DNA from: Streptacidiphilus neutrinimicus | Lineage (GTDB): Bacteria > Actinomycetota > Actinomycetes > Streptomycetales > Streptomycetaceae | DNA: 49,051 nt | Assembly (NCBI RefSeq): GCF_000787815.1 | Contig: NZ_BBPO01000014.1 | Location: forward strand, 49,229-98,279 | Direction of reading: 5' to 3' | Part shown: positions 1,942 to 30,619 of the stretch, one piece after another | How the letters are laid out: each line of letters opens with the position of its first letter | Numbering within the stretch: position 1 is the first letter of the stretch | The notes under the pieces: generated by a model | Databases searched by the model: none | The model's input: the letters and a program-made list of their open reading frames with translations, nothing else | What the model was told of the DNA's origin: nothing | Translations under genes and position numbers: made by a program

Positions 1942-2331
1942 ATGAGCGAGCACGACCTGCTGCTCGGCGACACCGTCGGCACGATCGTCGCCACCGGCGT
2001 CGACGCGCTGATCGAGCTCGTGGCCGACGGCGTCATGTGGCGGGGCACGCCGATGGCGGGCTCCACCTGGGCGGCGCGAAACCTGCCTCGTCCTCTCGAG
2101 GGCCGCGCGGACCTGCGGGACCGGCTGGCCGTGAGCGGGTTCCTGCATCTGGAGCGGGCGTCGTACCGGGTCGGCGAGCGGTGGGTGCCGGCCGGGGCCG
2201 TGCGGCTGCGGCTCGAGTCCGTCTCGGCCTGGTGGCTGCGCGGCGCCGCCGGCGTGCCCGAGGCCTCGTCGGCGACGACGGCCGACCGGAGCGGGACGCC
2301 GGAGCCGGCGGTCGCCGAGGTGGCGTCATGA
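1942..2331 (+). CDS. Small protein of unknown function in the FAD oxidoreductase operon
   Basis: A 129-residue soluble protein that I do not recognise. The ATG follows AAGGAGACCGCG, a good ribosome site. The N-terminus (LLLGDTVGTIVATG) suggests a small beta-rich fold, the middle has tryptophans and arginines, and the last 25 residues are Ala/Ser/Thr/Pro-rich and probably disordered. It starts 42 bases after the oxidoreductase and its stop overlaps the next start (ATGA), so the three genes are translationally linked. Its job is probably tied to the flanking redox enzymes. Confidence 0.7.
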   Translation: MSEHDLLLGDTVGTIVATGVDALIELVADGVMWRGTPMAGSTWAARNLPRPLEGRADLRDRLAVSGFLHLERASYRVGERWVPAGAVRLRLESVSAWWLRGAAGVPEASSATTADRSGTPEPAVAEVAS

Positions 2332-3887
2332 CGGCGCGCGGGGCGAGCGGCGCCGCGACTGGTCCCGGCGCGCTGTGCCTGGTCACCGGCGCGACCGGTT
2401 ACATCGGCGGGCGACTGGTAAGGGAACTGCTCGACGCCGGATACCGGGTGCGCTGTCTCAGCCGGAACCCGGACCGGCTGCGCGACCAGCCGTGGGCGGG
2501 CCACGTCGAGACGGTCCGCGCCGACCTGGGCGACCCGGCCTCGCTGACTGCGGCTCTGGACGGCGTCGACGTGGTGCACTACCTGGTCCACTCCCTGGGC
2601 ACCGGGCCCGACTTCGAACAGGCGGAGGCCGCCGCCGCGCGCAACCTCGCCGACGCGGCGGCCCGCGCGGGCACGCGCCGGATCGTGTACCTCGGCGGGC
2701 TGCTGCCGCGCGGCGTCGAACCGGCCGCGCTCTCCCCGCACCTGCGCTCGCGGGCGGCGGTCGGGGAGATCCTGCGGTCCGGCGCGGTGCCGACGGCGGA
2801 GCTGCGCGCCGCGGTGGTGCTGGGCTCGGGCTCGGCCTCGTTCGAGATGCTGCGCCACCTGACCGAGCGGCTGCCGGTGATGGTGACCCCGCGCTGGGTG
2901 CGCACGCTGATCCAGCCAATCGCCGTGCGCGACGTGCTGCGCTACCTGGTCGCCGCGGCCGCGCTGCCGCCGGAGGTGAACCGCAGCTTCGACATCGGCG
3001 GCCCCGAGGTGCTCAGCTACCGCGAGATGATGCTGCGATACGCCCGTGTCGCCGGGCTGCCGCGCCGTGTGATCGTCCCTGTGCCGGTGCTGTCGCCCGC
3101 CCTGTCCAGCCACTGGGTGGGTCTGGTCACTCCCGTGCCCAGGGGGCTGGCGCGGCCGCTCGTCGAATCGCTGCGGCACGAGGTGGTCTGCCGGGAGCAC
3201 GACATCGCGCGGTTCGTCCCCGACCCGCCGCAGGGCCTGGTGGGCTTCGACGAGGCCGTCGCGCTCGCGCTGACCCGGATCAAGGACGCCGAGGTGTCGA
3301 CCCGCTGGTCCTCGGCGGCGCTGCCCGGCGCGCCGAGCGACCCGCTGCCCACCGACCCGGGCTGGGCGGGCGGTTCGCTCTACGAGGACGTGCGCCAGGC
3401 AGCGGTGGCGGCGAGCGCCCGCGACCTGTGGCAGGTGGTCGAGGGCATCGGCGGCGAGAACGGCTGGTACTCCTTCCCGCTCGCCTGGGCGCTGCGCGGC
3501 TGGCTGGACCGGATCGCCGGCGGGGTGGGCCTGCGGCGCGGACGCCGTGATCCGCACCGGCTCCGCGTCGGGGACTCGCTGGACTTCTGGCGGGTGGAGG
3601 AGATCGAGCCGGGCCGGCTGCTGCGGCTGCGCGCGGAGATGCGGCTGCCCGGGCTGGCCTGGCTGGAACTGCGGGTCCAGCCGGACGGGCCGCGGCGCTC
3701 GCGCTACGTGCAGCGCGCCGTCTTCCACCCCCGCGGCCTGGCGGGCCACCTGTACTGGTGGAGCGTGGCGCCCTTCCACTCGGTCGTCTTCGGCGGCATG
3801 ACCCGCAACATCGCCCACGAGGCCGCCCGGCACGACCACGCGCCCGCCAGCCGCGGGCACGCGGGCCTCGCCGGCGGCCTGTCCTGA
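2328..3887 (+). CDS. SDR-family NAD(P)-binding protein with C-terminal DUF2867-type domain
   Basis: A 519-residue protein. Residues 15-300 are an atypical SDR/NmrA-like fold with the dinucleotide motif TGATGYIG (G21, G24, G27). The C-terminal 180 residues (LWQVVEGIGGENGWYSFP, FWRVEEIEPGRLLRLRAEM, and aromatic strands) match the DUF2867/SRPBCC-like domain found fused to such SDRs. Its start overlaps the previous stop by ATGA. The enzyme probably binds NAD(P)H and a hydrophobic ligand; the reaction is unknown. Linkage to a CarH-like regulator and a desaturase-like flavoprotein suggests a light- or stress-induced lipid or isoprenoid modification. Confidence 0.82.
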   Translation: MTARGASGAATGPGALCLVTGATGYIGGRLVRELLDAGYRVRCLSRNPDRLRDQPWAGHVETVRADLGDPASLTAALDGVDVVHYLVHSLGTGPDFEQAEAAAARNLADAAARAGTRRIVYLGGLLPRGVEPAALSPHLRSRAAVGEILRSGAVPTAELRAAVVLGSGSASFEMLRHLTERLPVMVTPRWVRTLIQPIAVRDVLRYLVAAAALPPEVNRSFDIGGPEVLSYREMMLRYARVAGLPRRVIVPVPVLSPALSSHWVGLVTPVPRGLARPLVESLRHEVVCREHDIARFVPDPPQGLVGFDEAVALALTRIKDAEVSTRWSSAALPGAPSDPLPTDPGWAGGSLYEDVRQAAVAASARDLWQVVEGIGGENGWYSFPLAWALRGWLDRIAGGVGLRRGRRDPHRLRVGDSLDFWRVEEIEPGRLLRLRAEMRLPGLAWLELRVQPDGPRRSRYVQRAVFHPRGLAGHLYWWSVAPFHSVVFGGMTRNIAHEAARHDHAPASRGHAGLAGGLS

Positions 3888-25925: not shown

Positions 25926-26010
25926 GCCGCACCTCCCGCCTCCCCCTCGGCGGCCCCGCCCGCACGTGCTCCCCGCGTGCACGTGCGGGGCCGCCACCTG
26001 CGGTTTCGCC

Positions 26011-26039
26011 TTGACACACCAGGAGGCCGAGCGTACAGA
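26011..26039 (+). promoter_or_regulatory. Housekeeping-type promoter for the multi-sensor phosphatase
   Basis: A perfect TTGACA (26011-26016), a 17-base spacer and TACAGA (26034-26039). Transcription would begin at about 26045-26046, at the chosen GTG, so the message is probably leaderless. Confidence 0.55.
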
Positions 26040-26045
26040 GAAGGG

Positions 26046-28589
26046 GTGCGCCAGGATGTGCCCGATGATCCGGGAGGGGCGGCCGGGACCGGCCGTCGCG
26101 GCGGCGGAGCCGGTGGACCCACGTCGGCCGCCGACCGCCACTGCGACGACCTGCTGGCCGACGCGGTGGAACGCACGGTGCGGGGCACCGGCGCCTACGG
26201 CGCCATGGTCTACCTGCGCTCGCGCGACCGCCGCTCGCTGGTGCTGAGCACCGTCGTGGGCGTGCCCGTCGCCACGCTGGAGCCGTTCCGCAGGGTCTCG
26301 GTCAAAGGCGCGCTGCCGGGGGCGCTGGCCTTCCGGTCCCGGCGCACCGTGCACCTGGCGGGGCCCGAGGAGACCATGCGCCGCTTCCCGCAGCTGCTGA
26401 TGGGCCTGCCCTACGCCTTCGCGTCCGCCTACACCCCGGTGATGGACGGCGAGGAGGTCTTCGGTGTGCTGTGCGCGCTGTGGCCGGCCACCGACCAGGG
26501 CGTGCCCGCGACGGCGCGCCGGCACCTGCGGCAGACGGCGCGGCGGCTCGGCGGGGAGCTCTCCAAGCTGCTCGCCGACGGCGGGACCGTCGAGGGCCGG
26601 ACCACGGTCGTGGAGCTGCCCTGGCTGACGGGCCAGGCCGTCCGGCTGGGCCTGTTCGACCTGGACCTCGAGACCCGCGCGCTCGACCTCGACGACGCAC
26701 TGTGCTCGCTGTTCGGCCTCGCCCCGGGAACCCGTGACAGCCGGGCCGAGGCGCTCGCCGCCGCGATCGCCCCCGACGACCTGCCGAGGGTCCGGGCCGC
26801 GCTGCGGCGCGCCTACCGCACGGGCCGGTTCCCGCCGCTGCTCCTGCGGGTCGTGGACGCCTCGCAGCACGTCCGGCCGGTCCAGGTCTGGGCGCGGGTG
26901 CGCGAGGGGGTCACCCACGGCGTGCGCGGACCGCACTTGGTCGGCGCGGTGCTCGACGTCGGGTCCACCGCCGCTGCCGCCCAGACGGTCGAACGGATGC
27001 GGCAGGGCGTCTTCTCGCTCGACGGCGACGGCCGGGTCCTGTACGCCAACCTCGGCGCCGAGCTGATGCTGGGGGTCCGTCGGGAGACGCTGCTGGGCAA
27101 GACCCTGTGGGAGATGCTCCCCTGGCTCGGCGACCCGGTGCACGAGGACCGCTACCGGGCGGCGGCGATCTCCCGGCAGCCCACCGCCTTCCTGGCCTGC
27201 CGCCCGCCGGACCGCTGGCTGGCGTTCACCCTGCAACCGGACGCCCAGGGCATGACCGGCACGGTCGTGCCGGGGGCGCTTCCCTCGGGCGGCCAGGGCC
27301 TGCGGGCGGCTGAGGGCGGCGCGGTGCCGGTGGCCCAGACCGGGGAGGCGGCCAGGCCCGGGGGCGCGGGCGCGATCTACCACCTGCTCCAGCTGGCCGG
27401 CGCCCTGGCGCAGGCGGTGTCGGTCCGTGAGGTGTGCGCGGCGGTGGCCGAGCAGATCGTGCCCGCGTTCGGCGGCCAGGAGCTGGCGATCTACGTGGTC
27501 AAGGAGAACCGGCTGCACCTGGCCCTCCAGGTGGGCTATCCGGAGGGCTTCCTCGATCCGTTCGAGGGCACGCCCATGCGCGCGCGGCTCCCCGGGGTGG
27601 ACACGCTGACCAGCGGCGCCCCGATCTTCTTCGCGTCCGTCGACGAGCTCGCCGGGGCCTACCCGGGCATCCCGCTGGACCAGATGTGCGCGTGGGCGTT
27701 CCTGCCGCTGATCGCCTCCGGGCACCCGGTCGGCAGCTGCATCCTCGGCTTCGACGAGCCGCACCCGTTCACCTCGGAGGAGCGCGGCGTGCTGACCGCC
27801 CTCGGGGGCCTGATCGCGCAGGCGCTGGAGCGCGCCCGGCTGTACGACGCGGAGTTCGCCCTCGCCCGGGGCCTGCAGCAGGCGCTGCTCCCCCACGCCC
27901 TGCCCCGGCTGGACGCGGTGCGCATCGCCGCCCGCTACCTGCCCGGCACGCGCGGGATGGAGATCGGCGGCGACTGGTACGACGCGATCGTCACCGACCG
28001 CGGGCTCTGCCTGGTCATCGGCGACGTCGAGGGCCACAGCGTGGCGGCGGCCGGCGTCATGGGACAGCTGCGCAGCGCGGTCCGCGCGTTCGTGGCCAGC
28101 GGGCACCCGCTGGAGCAGGTACTGGAGCACGTCAACCAGCTTCTGCCCGACCTCGGCTCGGGGCTGCTGGCCAGCTGCTGCCTGGTCGAGCTGGACCCCG
28201 TCTCGGGCCGGGCCCAGGGGGTCCGCGCAGGTCATCTGCCGCCGCTGCTGCGTCACCCCGACGGCCGCACCGACGTGCTCGACCTGGGCGGCGGGGTGCT
28301 GCTGGGCGTGGACCCGCGGGCCACCTTCCCGGTCGAGGAGGTGGTGCTCACCCCCGGCTCGGTGCTGGCCCTGTACACGGACGGCCTGGTCGAACGCCCG
28401 GACGGCCCGATCGACCACGGCATCGACCGGCTGCGCGCCGCGTTGGCGCACGCCGACGTGTCCTCCCTGGAGCAGCTCGCCGACCGGCTGCTCGCGGACG
28501 CGCTGCCCGCGACCAGTCGCCTGGACGACGTGGCGATGCTGCTGGCCTCGGTCGACCGCTGGGGCCCTGGCCGCCTGACGCCCGGCTGA
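26046..28589 (+). CDS. Large multi-sensor PP2C (SpoIIE-type) phosphatase with GAF and PAS domains
   Basis: 847 residues. In order: a GAF-like domain (about 35-175, AYGAMVYLRSRDRRSLVLS), a PAS-like segment (about 195-310, GLFDLDLETRALDLDDALCSLFGL in parts), a PAS domain (about 320-420, GVFSLDGDGRVLYANLGAEL), a second GAF (about 450-600) and a C-terminal PP2C (LQQALLPHALPRLDAV, GGDWYDAIV, IGDVEGHS, LALYTDGLVERPD, LDDVAMLLA). It should dephosphorylate STAS proteins in response to cellular signals. The start was set by the -10 box immediately upstream; residues 1-30 are low in conservation, and GTG 26058 is an alternative. The gene has its own promoter. Confidence 0.88.
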   Translation: MRQDVPDDPGGAAGTGRRGGGAGGPTSAADRHCDDLLADAVERTVRGTGAYGAMVYLRSRDRRSLVLSTVVGVPVATLEPFRRVSVKGALPGALAFRSRRTVHLAGPEETMRRFPQLLMGLPYAFASAYTPVMDGEEVFGVLCALWPATDQGVPATARRHLRQTARRLGGELSKLLADGGTVEGRTTVVELPWLTGQAVRLGLFDLDLETRALDLDDALCSLFGLAPGTRDSRAEALAAAIAPDDLPRVRAALRRAYRTGRFPPLLLRVVDASQHVRPVQVWARVREGVTHGVRGPHLVGAVLDVGSTAAAAQTVERMRQGVFSLDGDGRVLYANLGAELMLGVRRETLLGKTLWEMLPWLGDPVHEDRYRAAAISRQPTAFLACRPPDRWLAFTLQPDAQGMTGTVVPGALPSGGQGLRAAEGGAVPVAQTGEAARPGGAGAIYHLLQLAGALAQAVSVREVCAAVAEQIVPAFGGQELAIYVVKENRLHLALQVGYPEGFLDPFEGTPMRARLPGVDTLTSGAPIFFASVDELAGAYPGIPLDQMCAWAFLPLIASGHPVGSCILGFDEPHPFTSEERGVLTALGGLIAQALERARLYDAEFALARGLQQALLPHALPRLDAVRIAARYLPGTRGMEIGGDWYDAIVTDRGLCLVIGDVEGHSVAAAGVMGQLRSAVRAFVASGHPLEQVLEHVNQLLPDLGSGLLASCCLVELDPVSGRAQGVRAGHLPPLLRHPDGRTDVLDLGGGVLLGVDPRATFPVEEVVLTPGSVLALYTDGLVERPDGPIDHGIDRLRAALAHADVSSLEQLADRLLADALPATSRLDDVAMLLASVDRWGPGRLTPG

Positions 28590-28679: not shown

Positions 28680-29570
28680 ATGCGGATGCGACCAACCCTG
28701 ACCTGGACGCCCACCGGCCCCCCGCAGGCCCCGGCGGCGACCAGCGTGGAGGCCGTCGCCTCGGTCGTGGGCGAGGGCCGCGTCCTGGTCCTGAGCGGCG
28801 CCGGGCTGTCCACCGAGTCCGGGATCCCCGACTACCGCGGGGAGGGCGGCACGCTGCGCCGCCACACCCCGATGACCTACCAGGACTTCGTCGGGAGCGA
28901 CGAGGCCCGCCGCCGCTACTGGGCGCGTAGCCATCTGGGCTGGCGCGCGATGACCGGCGCCCACCCCAACTCCGGCCACCACGCCGTGACCACGCTGGCC
29001 CGGCACGGCTACCTCACCGGCGTGGTCACCCAGAATGTGGACGGCCTGCACCGCGCCGCAGGGACGGCCGAGCTCGTCGAGACCGTCGAGCTGCACGGCA
29101 GCCTCGACCGCGTCGTCTGCCTCGGGTGCCGCGAGACCACCGCGCGCGCGGAGCTCGACCGCCGCCTGCGGGAGGCGAACCCGGACTTCGCGGCGACCGC
29201 CACGCGGATCAACCCGGACGGCGACGCGGACCTGCCTGACGCCCTCGTACGCGCCTTCCGTCCCGTCCCCTGCGCCGCCTGCGGCGGCGGGACGCTCAAG
29301 CCCGACGTCGTCTTCTTCGGCGAGAACGTCCCGCGCCCTCGGGTGGACCAGTGCTACCGCCTGGTGGACGGCTCCGACGCCGTACTCGTCCTCGGCTCCT
29401 CGCTGACGGTCCTCTCCGGCCTGCGCTTCGTCCGCCGCGCGGCCGAGACCGGCACCCCGGTGCTCATCATCAACCAGGGCGCCACCCGCGGCGACACTCA
29501 CGCTGCCCACCGCGTCGACCTCCCGCTCGGCCACGCCCTCACCGAACTCACGCGCCTGCTGGGGCTCTAG
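28680..29570 (+). CDS. Sir2-family NAD-dependent protein deacylase
   Basis: 296 residues. It has the NAD motif GAGLSTESGIPDYRG, TQNVDGLH, catalytic H139 in ELHGS, zinc cysteines CLGC and CAAC, and VFFGENVP and GSSLTV. This is a class II/IV-like bacterial sirtuin removing acyl groups from lysines with NAD. TACTCT at 28668-28673, six bases before ATG 28680, suggests a leaderless mRNA; ATG 28686 is also in frame. There is no obvious partner acetyltransferase nearby apart from the decayed GNAT at 14.9 kb. Confidence 0.93.
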   Translation: MRMRPTLTWTPTGPPQAPAATSVEAVASVVGEGRVLVLSGAGLSTESGIPDYRGEGGTLRRHTPMTYQDFVGSDEARRRYWARSHLGWRAMTGAHPNSGHHAVTTLARHGYLTGVVTQNVDGLHRAAGTAELVETVELHGSLDRVVCLGCRETTARAELDRRLREANPDFAATATRINPDGDADLPDALVRAFRPVPCAACGGGTLKPDVVFFGENVPRPRVDQCYRLVDGSDAVLVLGSSLTVLSGLRFVRRAAETGTPVLIINQGATRGDTHAAHRVDLPLGHALTELTRLLGL

Positions 29571-29761: not shown

Positions 29762-30331
29762 TCAGACGAGAGTCGCGCGGACGCGCTCGGACAGCGCGGC
29801 GAGATCGAAGCCGTGCGCCCGCACGAGTCGGGTGGCCGGGGAGTCCTCGACGCGCAGCAGCCCGAGCAGGAGGTGGCCGGGGAGGATCTCCCGGCTCTTC
29901 AGCGCGAGGGCCTCGCGCAGCGAGAGCTCCAGGGCCTTCTTGGCCTGGGGGGTGAACGGGAGGTGCCCGCCGGTCAGGCTTCCGCTGCCGCGCCGACGGC
30001 GGCCGGCCGCGCCCCCGGCGCCACTGAGGGCGCCGACGCCGAAGACCGCCTCCACCTTCTCGCGCACCGCGTCGAGGTCGATGCCGATGGTGTCCAGCGC
30101 CTCGGCGTCCAGCTCGGGGCCGGGCGCCGCGCGCCGACCGCGGACCGTGTCGCGGGCGGTCCGCAGGTCGAGTCCGCCCTCGACGAGCACCGCCACGGCG
30201 GCGTCGTCCGGCAGTCCGAGCAGGCCCAGCATGAGGTGTTCCGGGCCGGTCGTGGAGCTCTCCAGCATCCGCGCCTCCTCCTGGGCGAGGACGACAGCGC
30301 GCCTGCAACCGGCGGTGAACCGCTCGAACAT
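29762..30331 (-). CDS. Clp N-domain protein (ClpC-like N-terminal repeats without ATPase)
   Basis: 189 residues with two Clp N repeats: FERFTAGCRRAVVLAQEEARML...GPEHLMLGLL (about 3-60) and FTPQAKKALELSLREALAL...ILPGHLLLGLLRVEDSPA (about 105-180). No Walker motifs follow. In ClpC this domain binds substrates and adaptors, so a free copy could act as an adaptor or competitor of ClpC. The start is ATG 30331, two bases after the stop of the HTH gene, so they form an operon under the twin operators. The longer in-frame start adds residues that belong to the upstream gene in another frame. Confidence 0.88.
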   Translation of the reverse strand: MFERFTAGCRRAVVLAQEEARMLESSTTGPEHLMLGLLGLPDDAAVAVLVEGGLDLRTARDTVRGRRAAPGPELDAEALDTIGIDLDAVREKVEAVFGVGALSGAGGAAGRRRRGSGSLTGGHLPFTPQAKKALELSLREALALKSREILPGHLLLGLLRVEDSPATRLVRAHGFDLAALSERVRATLV

Positions 30332-30333
30332 CG

Positions 30334-30570
30334 TCAGTCTTCCTTCCTGCGGCCGAAACGGCCGCCGCTGCCGTGCTTCTTGTGGACCGCCTGGCGGCTG
30401 ACGCCGAGGCAGTCGGCGATCATCTGCCACGTCCATCCCTGCGCGCGGGCGTTGCCGACCTGCAGGTCCTCCAGCCGCTCGGCCAGCTCACGCAGGGCGC
30501 GCACGGCCTTCAGCCCGACCGCCGGATCGCGGCTGCTCGCGGCGTCCGCGAGCGTCCTGGTTTCGCTCAT
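30334..30570 (-). CDS. Small helix-turn-helix regulator of the Clp-N operon
   Basis: 78 residues. A helical N-terminus (VGLKAVRALRELAERLEDLQV) is followed by a HTH, WQMIADCLGVSRQAVHKKH, and a basic tail. The A-x-x-LGVSRQAVHKKH helix is common in actinobacterial HTH proteins paired with Clp-N proteins. Its own promoter is covered by two palindromes, so it is probably autoregulatory. ATG 30570 lies 7 bases after the -10 box, so the mRNA is probably leaderless. Confidence 0.88.
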   Translation of the reverse strand: MSETRTLADAASSRDPAVGLKAVRALRELAERLEDLQVGNARAQGWTWQMIADCLGVSRQAVHKKHGSGGRFGRRKED

Positions 30571-30573
30571 GCC

Positions 30574-30619
30574 TGTCAATGTAGGTTGACAGAGAAGGCC
30601 CTGTCAACCCTGGTTGACA
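30574..30619 (-). promoter_or_regulatory. Twin palindromic operators overlapping the HTH/Clp-N promoter
   Basis: Two 18-bp palindromes, 28 bp centre to centre: 30574-30591 (TGTCAATGTAGGTTGACA) and 30602-30619 (TGTCAACCCTGGTTGACA, perfect). On the minus strand TTGACA of the second palindrome is the -35 (30607-30602), and TACATT inside the first is the -10 (30583-30578, 18-base spacer), with the start codon seven bases later. A repressor bound at both sites would block the promoter fully. The adjacent HTH protein is the obvious candidate. Confidence 0.8.

Follow-up and report, generated by a model that had tools for sequence, protein, structure and literature searches.

The analysed window, a 49,051-nucleotide stretch of the Streptacidiphilus neutrinimicus genome, carries a two-gene operon on the minus strand that is preceded by two palindromic operators. 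The first gene (30334-30570) encodes a 78-aa helix-turn-helix (HTH) protein, and the second (29762-30331) encodes a free 189-aa Clp-N protein (P0002) with the predicted fold of a ClpC1 N-domain but no ATPase; 2 nt lie between the two ORFs. The upstream operator, op1 (30602-30619, minus strand), is a perfect 18-bp palindrome, TGTCAACCCTGGTTGACA, whose second half supplies the -35 hexamer TTGACA (30602-30607, minus strand). The downstream operator, op2 (30574-30591, minus strand), is an 18-bp palindrome, TGTCAATGTAGGTTGACA, that contains the -10 hexamer TACATT (30578-30583, minus strand). The operators are 10 bp apart, the spacer between the hexamers is 18 nt, and only 7 nt lie between the -10 and the ATG, whose A is at 30570; the predicted transcript therefore has no leader and the operon promoter should be leaderless. 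A first-pass annotation of this DNA had described the twin 18-bp palindromes as giving the -35 and covering the -10 of a leaderless promoter, upstream of an HTH protein and an ATPase-less Clp-N protein. Its coordinates are correct, the hexamers and the ATG could be placed, and the two ORFs are as described, with Pfam finding Clp_N only in the 189-aa product. Compared with the pattern given in that annotation, op1 is perfect and op2 has 2 mismatches.

A small ORF on the same strand (30923-30642, 93 aa) stops 22 bp upstream of op1; it had no match in a Pfam search and may be a real gene. On the other side of the operon and convergent with it, the plus strand encodes a PAS/GAF/SpoIIE phosphatase (25977-28589) and then a SIR2 family protein (28680-29570).

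Sites matching the operator pattern are expected 0.06 times (sd 0.34) by chance in the window, and two were reached in one of 100 shuffles. Perfect 7-bp arms flanking 4 bp occur 24 times in the window, so a lone palindrome carries little weight; we place the weight of the evidence on the resemblance between op1 and op2 and on their conservation in relatives. The first-pass annotation had proposed a genome search for the palindrome, and in the 8.4-Mb genome the strict pattern finds no place within 2 mismatches apart from op1 and op2. Nine places have 3 mismatches, versus five for a reversed control pattern with up to 3 mismatches. A looser pattern, GTCAA-N6/7-TTGAC, finds 12 places in the genome versus one for the reversed control. 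Two of these are op1 and op2, two lie at a gene for a fused ClpC2-like protein (contig C179), one is near the gene for an HTH-DUF3887 protein (C134), and one is near another HTH gene (C46). Through the remaining six (C16, C122, C151, two in C157, and C177), the regulon may reach beyond the operon.

The Clp-N protein matches two Clp_N repeats in Pfam (E 2e-18); at E 0.1 nothing else in Pfam matches its 189 aa, and AAA+ ATPase domains are absent. The predicted structure (pLDDT 89) aligns with ClpC1 N-domains at Z ~23 (rmsd 1.6 over 138 residues, 44-45% identity), with a clostridial ClpC N-domain equally well (Z 23.5), and with the C-domain of ClpC2 at Z 16.5. The cyclomarin-contact residues F2, F80, and E89 (ClpC1 numbering) are all present in P0002 and are kept in 77, 75, and 71 of the best 80 relatives, respectively, and the ligand pocket as judged from these residues is retained. 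Position 106 is G in P0002 and in 61 of the 80 relatives; ClpC1 has E at this position, which we take to be a phospho-arginine contact. The cyclomarin pocket is described as remote from the phospho-arginine sites (PMC9240326).

For the HTH protein, Pfam gives HTH matches only below the curated cut-offs. In its model (pLDDT 88), residues 16-43 form a long helix and residues 48-55 and 59-67 the HTH helices, and the C-terminal tail is of low confidence; the second HTH helix is the recognition helix (RQAVHKKHG; 30370-30396, minus strand). When structures are searched with a profile of eight HTH proteins, RelI (9sdc, E 4e-6) and the N-domain of ClpC2 (8ADA, E 0.0013) are matched; the single HTH sequence has no match to 8ADA at E up to 1. 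A fold search with the model lists common HTH arrangements only (Foldseek none at E <0.001; best Z 5.2), and neither 8ADA nor RelI is among the matches. Homology to the ClpC2 N-domain and to RelI therefore rests on the sequence profile, by which the HTH protein is homologous to residues 4-72 of the ClpC2 N-domain. The protein is probably a dimer.

The split arrangement is widespread in actinomycetes. When named genomes were scanned with an alignment of eight HTH proteins, at least 595 stretches matched and at least 544 of these were relatives, the best 80 of which were analysed; these belong to Streptacidiphilus, Kitasatospora, Actinomadura, Streptosporangium, Blastococcus, Pseudonocardia, Modestobacter, Rhodococcus, and other genera. 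An HTH ORF is followed by a separate Clp-N ORF, located by profile search, in 80 of 80 loci (the best of at least 544 relatives). Clp-N starts -4 to +16 nt past the HTH stop in 79 of them and 43 nt past it in the other, the choice of start being mechanical. At least one GTCA...TGAC palindrome lies upstream in 79 of the 80 loci (two in 67, one in 12), L189 being the only locus of the best 80 without one by the search pattern. Measured from start to start, paired sites are 27 bp apart in 30 loci and 28 bp apart in 37, corresponding to a promoter spacer of 17 or 18 nt, respectively. All 146 sites at these 79 split loci are 18 bp long (16-19 bp allowed). Control windows from the same loci contain at least one site in 22 of 2,260 cases and two sites in 1 of 2,260. 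Among 166 downstream (op2) sites of 18 bp, 145 have TA at positions 9-10, compared with 10 of the upstream (op1) sites, a bias toward the downstream site that is expected if the -10 is carried by op2 only.

A second sample was drawn across the class, and its 30 best loci were inspected. The HTH motif was not found at L324; all 29 loci that have it possess at least two 18-bp sites (15-21 bp allowed) that are 27 or 28 bp apart, and 28 of the 29 have a separate Clp-N ORF within the set limits, the Clp-N frame of L309 extending past them. At E 1e-12, the HTH profile has matches in 94 of the 197 genomes and 46 of the 91 genera of the class sample (the 30 best loci having been inspected individually). 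The split form is thus common and has an operator spacing of its own, both of which go beyond the first-pass annotation. We rejected chance palindromes on the basis of the shuffle expectation and of the upstream conservation in both samples of relatives. We also rejected a truncated full-length ClpC or ClpB, because all 80 loci keep the free form, which comes with operators of its own. To address a phage origin, viral contigs were scanned with the HTH alignment; of 71 pattern matches, one was a weak relative.

ClpC2 of mycobacteria is a partial homologue of ClpC1 in which a dimerisation domain at the N-terminus is joined to a C-domain that resembles ClpC1. In its own promoter it recognises CGTCAAC-n5-GTTGACG, which is repeated in many species, and these operators cover both the -35 and the -10 of the gene, which is putatively leaderless; cyclomarin A derepresses ClpC2, which then acts as a drug sponge and protects ClpC1 (PMC10030653). 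In M. tuberculosis, cyclomarin alone of three peptides tried triggered the ClpC2 response, and ecumicin and ilamycin did not (PMC12913811, in excerpt). The name ClpC2 is unsuitable for the split system, because in Streptomyces papers it denotes a full Clp-ATPase (PMC12607617, in excerpt).

Fused ClpC2-like proteins also occur outside mycobacteria, and the S. neutrinimicus genome itself encodes one, on contig C179, with two 19-bp sites. A search for fused proteins yielded 30 loci, 20 of which were inspected; the 10 left out match mostly in the Clp_N part, and nearly all lie in frames as long as full ClpC. Sites are present at 17 of the 20 fused loci, and all 34 of them are 19 bp long (15-21 bp allowed). 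No sites were found by the search pattern at L219 and L237, and L222, when read in the correct frame, has two 19-bp sites. Operators are thus 18 bp in split pairs and 19 bp in fused proteins (146 of 146 versus 34 of 34 sites). This spacing is a clean marker but a single event, as the difference corresponds to one change on a tree of 120 HTH cores. The fused gene on C179 (L105; 1906-2607 on the reverse complement) encodes 234 aa downstream of its twin 19-bp operators. Its product is 78-87% identical to proteins of genus g37, which belongs to another family (f19), and 39-41% identical to those of g9, a genus of its own family; the higher identity to another family's genus suggests that L105 was horizontally transferred.

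Additional members of the HTH family are found in other contexts. The same genome has a second split HTH/Clp-N pair (L104, C136), with the helix SRQSVHEKH and a GTCAGG-type operator, TGTCAGGCTAACCTGACA, and the HTH-DUF3887 protein of C134 has an HTH of this family. At L274 (C183), an ORF at 2053-1649 on the minus strand encodes a 134-aa protein in which a ClpX C4 zinc finger (E 3e-16) is joined to the HTH, and twin 19-bp GTCAGG/CCTGAC sites lie upstream. This ZnF(ClpX)-HTH type occurs in 21 of the 197 class genomes. The zinc finger is recognised by pattern at 20 of 22 loci; 15 of these 20 have two palindromes, three have one, and two have none, and all the palindromes are 19 bp except for one 18-bp site (L295). 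A literature search found nothing on a ClpX C4 zinc finger combined with an HTH and no title or abstract opening that describes the split pair, including the passage of PMC13118837 that was available; bioRxiv preprints and most subscription papers lay outside this search, and its silence on both types is weak evidence of absence.

Several loci contain more divergent members. L273 (C64) has an ORF (2161-2778, plus strand) for a 205-aa protein with a C-terminal HTH (MSKQTAHERF) and no Pfam match, and two GTCAG-type palindromes, 28 bp apart, lie upstream. A conserved HTH protein (GVTKQAVHRRYG) is encoded at L054-L066, L068, and C46 (L020), and in most of these loci a GGTCAA-N6-TTGACC palindrome is located several hundred bp upstream of the helix; it is missing at L054 and has N7 in L062. 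The C46 protein, which is from the same genome as the operon, has no Pfam match. L069 and L070 have an HTH of the same family with GTCATC-type half-sites, and at L069 Clp-N is replaced by a gene that has an ATP-binding motif and looks MoxR-like by eye.

The variety of helices and operators allows a comparison of HTH residue 61, the A of RQAVHKK, with base 6 of the half-sites (N-GTCA, then base 6). Base 6 is left free by the search pattern, and the comparison covers loci with twin sites, fused loci included. Where residue 61 is A, as in the protein studied here (145 loci), base 6 is A in 143, 145, 143, and 142 of the four half-sites. Where it is S or T (37 loci), the three half-sites other than the -35 half-site have G at base 6 in 37, 32, and 35 loci, and the -35 half-site has A in all 37, as TTGACA requires. 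On a quickly computed HTH tree of 120 of the 170 rows and 56 columns, from which 50 split residue-A rows were thinned out and in which 69 of the 117 inner branches are drawn open, residue 61 changes four times and base 6 five times. The cross-table contains 71 rows with A and not G, 47 with S/T and G, two with A and G, and none with S/T and not G. Independent residue/base pairs number one on supported branches and four on all branches, too few for a sign test to become significant. Four ZnF-HTH proteins with residue A have mixed G and A, which speaks against a strict rule. L298, a row labelled split with sites of 19 bp, falls with the ZnF type on the tree. The covariation is suggestive and points to the HTH protein as the reader of the operator.

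The opposite assignment, in which Clp-N is the main operator-binding factor, follows what has been proposed for ClpC2. Taylor et al. placed its DNA binding in the C-domain, and the R185A/R189A exchange weakens operator binding (PMC10030653, in excerpt). Mapped through F172/E181, these arginines correspond to ClpC1 positions 93 and 97. Position 93 is R in 79 of the 80 split Clp-N proteins, which favours the assignment, and position 97 is R in 30 of the 80 and A in P0002. Yet the first arginine is also present in ClpC1 of the same genome, and M. tuberculosis ClpC1 is reported to bind operator DNA weakly and with little specificity (PMC10030653). Base 6 of the operator follows HTH residue 61 across subfamilies, which likewise argues against Clp-N. 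So does the extent of the ClpC2 crystals: the match to 8ADA runs to the end of its chain at residue 72 (...SMGV), just before the recognition helix, and the second crystal of the ClpC2 paper begins at residue 94 (PMC10030653, in excerpt), so the helix is in neither. Other ClpC2 structure entries (8b9o, 9p2p) were matched over Clp_N only. The missing helix may be the reason that DNA binding was sought in the C-domain of ClpC2. Overall, we consider it very unlikely that Clp-N rather than the HTH protein is the main operator binder.

We think it likely that the operon is an autorepressed, split receptor/decoy of the ClpC2 type, in which repression, sensing, and decoy action would resemble those of ClpC2. 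The HTH protein, probably as a dimer, would occupy both 18-bp operators and block the leaderless promoter, keeping operon expression low. A ligand of ClpC1, which could be a cyclic peptide resembling cyclomarin or, during heat stress, unfolded protein, would lift repression; Clp-N would then be made in quantity, soak up the ligand, and spare the ClpC1 protease. Because the drug and DNA sites sit on different proteins, the signal must act in trans, by contact or titration, and with the domains separate the cis mechanism of ClpC2 is impossible; this trans step is what separates the split variant from ClpC2. Most likely, empty Clp-N would contact the HTH protein and ligand-bound Clp-N would release it, although this is the weakest step of the scheme. 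Autoregulation through the twin operators, which the first-pass annotation had put forward, is well supported as a prediction by conservation, by the helix/operator covariation, and by ClpC2 as a precedent. Its suggestion of a substrate-binding decoy gains from the retained pocket and from the ClpC2 sponge (PMC10030653, in excerpt), by analogy with which Clp-N would act as a sponge here. The layout is less new than that annotation supposed, since ClpC2, which it did not name, precedes it.

Two further readings start from the same operon. Its small size and two genes, with Clp-N starting -4 to +16 nt past the HTH stop in 79 of 80 loci, would suit a toxin-antitoxin-like pair in which Clp-N is a growth-inhibiting competitor of ClpC1 and the HTH protein is both antidote and repressor; the antitoxin RelI, moreover, is in the same HTH family (PMC13284704, in excerpt). 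The partner of RelI is an RNase, however, and the partner here is a receptor domain: no RelE/BrnT-type RNase was found beside the HTH, and the next gene is Clp_N here and in 80 of 80 relatives. Fused ClpC2, in which a single chain contains the two domains, protects against cyclomarin (PMC10030653, in excerpt), and matches to the HTH profile in 94 of 197 class genomes (30 best loci inspected) are a distribution that we judge broad for a toxin-antitoxin pair, which makes this reading unlikely. We also give little credence to the strong form of the first-pass annotation's idea, a sensor of proteolytic load in which the HTH repressor would be a ClpC1 substrate and Clp-N would compete for its delivery, thereby feeding back on ClpC1 activity. 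Clp-N retains the receptor fold and pocket of ClpC1, and the C-terminal tail of the HTH model has low confidence, as for a flexible tail; both are compatible with such a sensor, but the tail sequences differ among relatives and no degron was identified in the HTH protein.

The split receptor/decoy could be part of a larger actinomycete family of 'unfoldase-receptor repressors', a joint reading that we offer tentatively and hold to be somewhat short of an even chance. One HTH family would be coupled to a receptor domain of ClpC (fused or in trans) or to the zinc-finger receptor domain of ClpX, and each member would report ligands of its unfoldase and repress its own promoter, which would be leaderless in the ClpC types. 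The split form would sense in trans, with empty Clp-N as the co-repressor. Two features would prevent cross-talk between paralogues in one cell: the operator spacing (18 or 19 bp) and a recognition code in which helix residue A reads GTCAA and S/T reads GTCAG. Actinomycetes are the group that produces antitubercular cyclic peptides. Several of these have ClpC1 as their target, and ClpC2 is the best-worked example of a sensor-sponge that we found (PMC10030653, in excerpt). The split form in many actinomycete genera would represent a common way to sense ligands of a protease receptor and perhaps to resist them. With the recognition helix outside both ClpC2 crystals, the HTH may have been overlooked as a DNA reader, and the operator spacing and the residue 61/base 6 rule lend themselves to simple swaps. 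The most interesting lead is that receptor domains of both ClpC and ClpX are tied to one repressor family.

The components of the split pair resemble several known proteins. The N-terminal domain of ClpC1 shares its fold and pocket with free Clp-N; ClpC1 has AAA+ domains, whereas split Clp-N is a free protein without them and has a longer insert after the first repeat. The RelS-RelI paper had already noted the HTH similarity of RelI and ClpC2 and describes RelI as a small stand-alone protein from a two-gene operon, with an HTH region of the same family (PMC13284704). Its partner is an RNase toxin that is encoded first, in contrast to the receptor domain of the split pair, and by the authors' account RelI has no upstream inverted repeats and no strong evidence for DNA binding. 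The ZnF(ClpX)-HTH fusions are alike in that the same HTH family is tied to the receptor domain of an unfoldase, but the receptor is the ClpX C4 zinc finger, the protein is one polypeptide, the sites are of the 19-bp GTCAGG-n5-CCTGAC type, and several have an untranslated leader by eye, unlike the split pair, which is predicted to be leaderless. Mycobacterial ClpC2 (Rv2667 and relatives) is the nearest described system. It shares with the split pair the two domains, a ClpC1-type ligand pocket, and the lack of an ATPase, as well as twin GTCAAC/GTTGAC palindromes that cover both the -35 and the -10 of a leaderless promoter, an arrangement which in the split pair is a prediction from sequence only. 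Autorepression and the cyclomarin response are shown for ClpC2 and would extend to the split pair by analogy. ClpC2 is one polypeptide with 19-bp (n5) operators, whereas the system described here consists of two ORFs, which are also separate in 80 of 80 relatives, with 18-bp (n4) operators.
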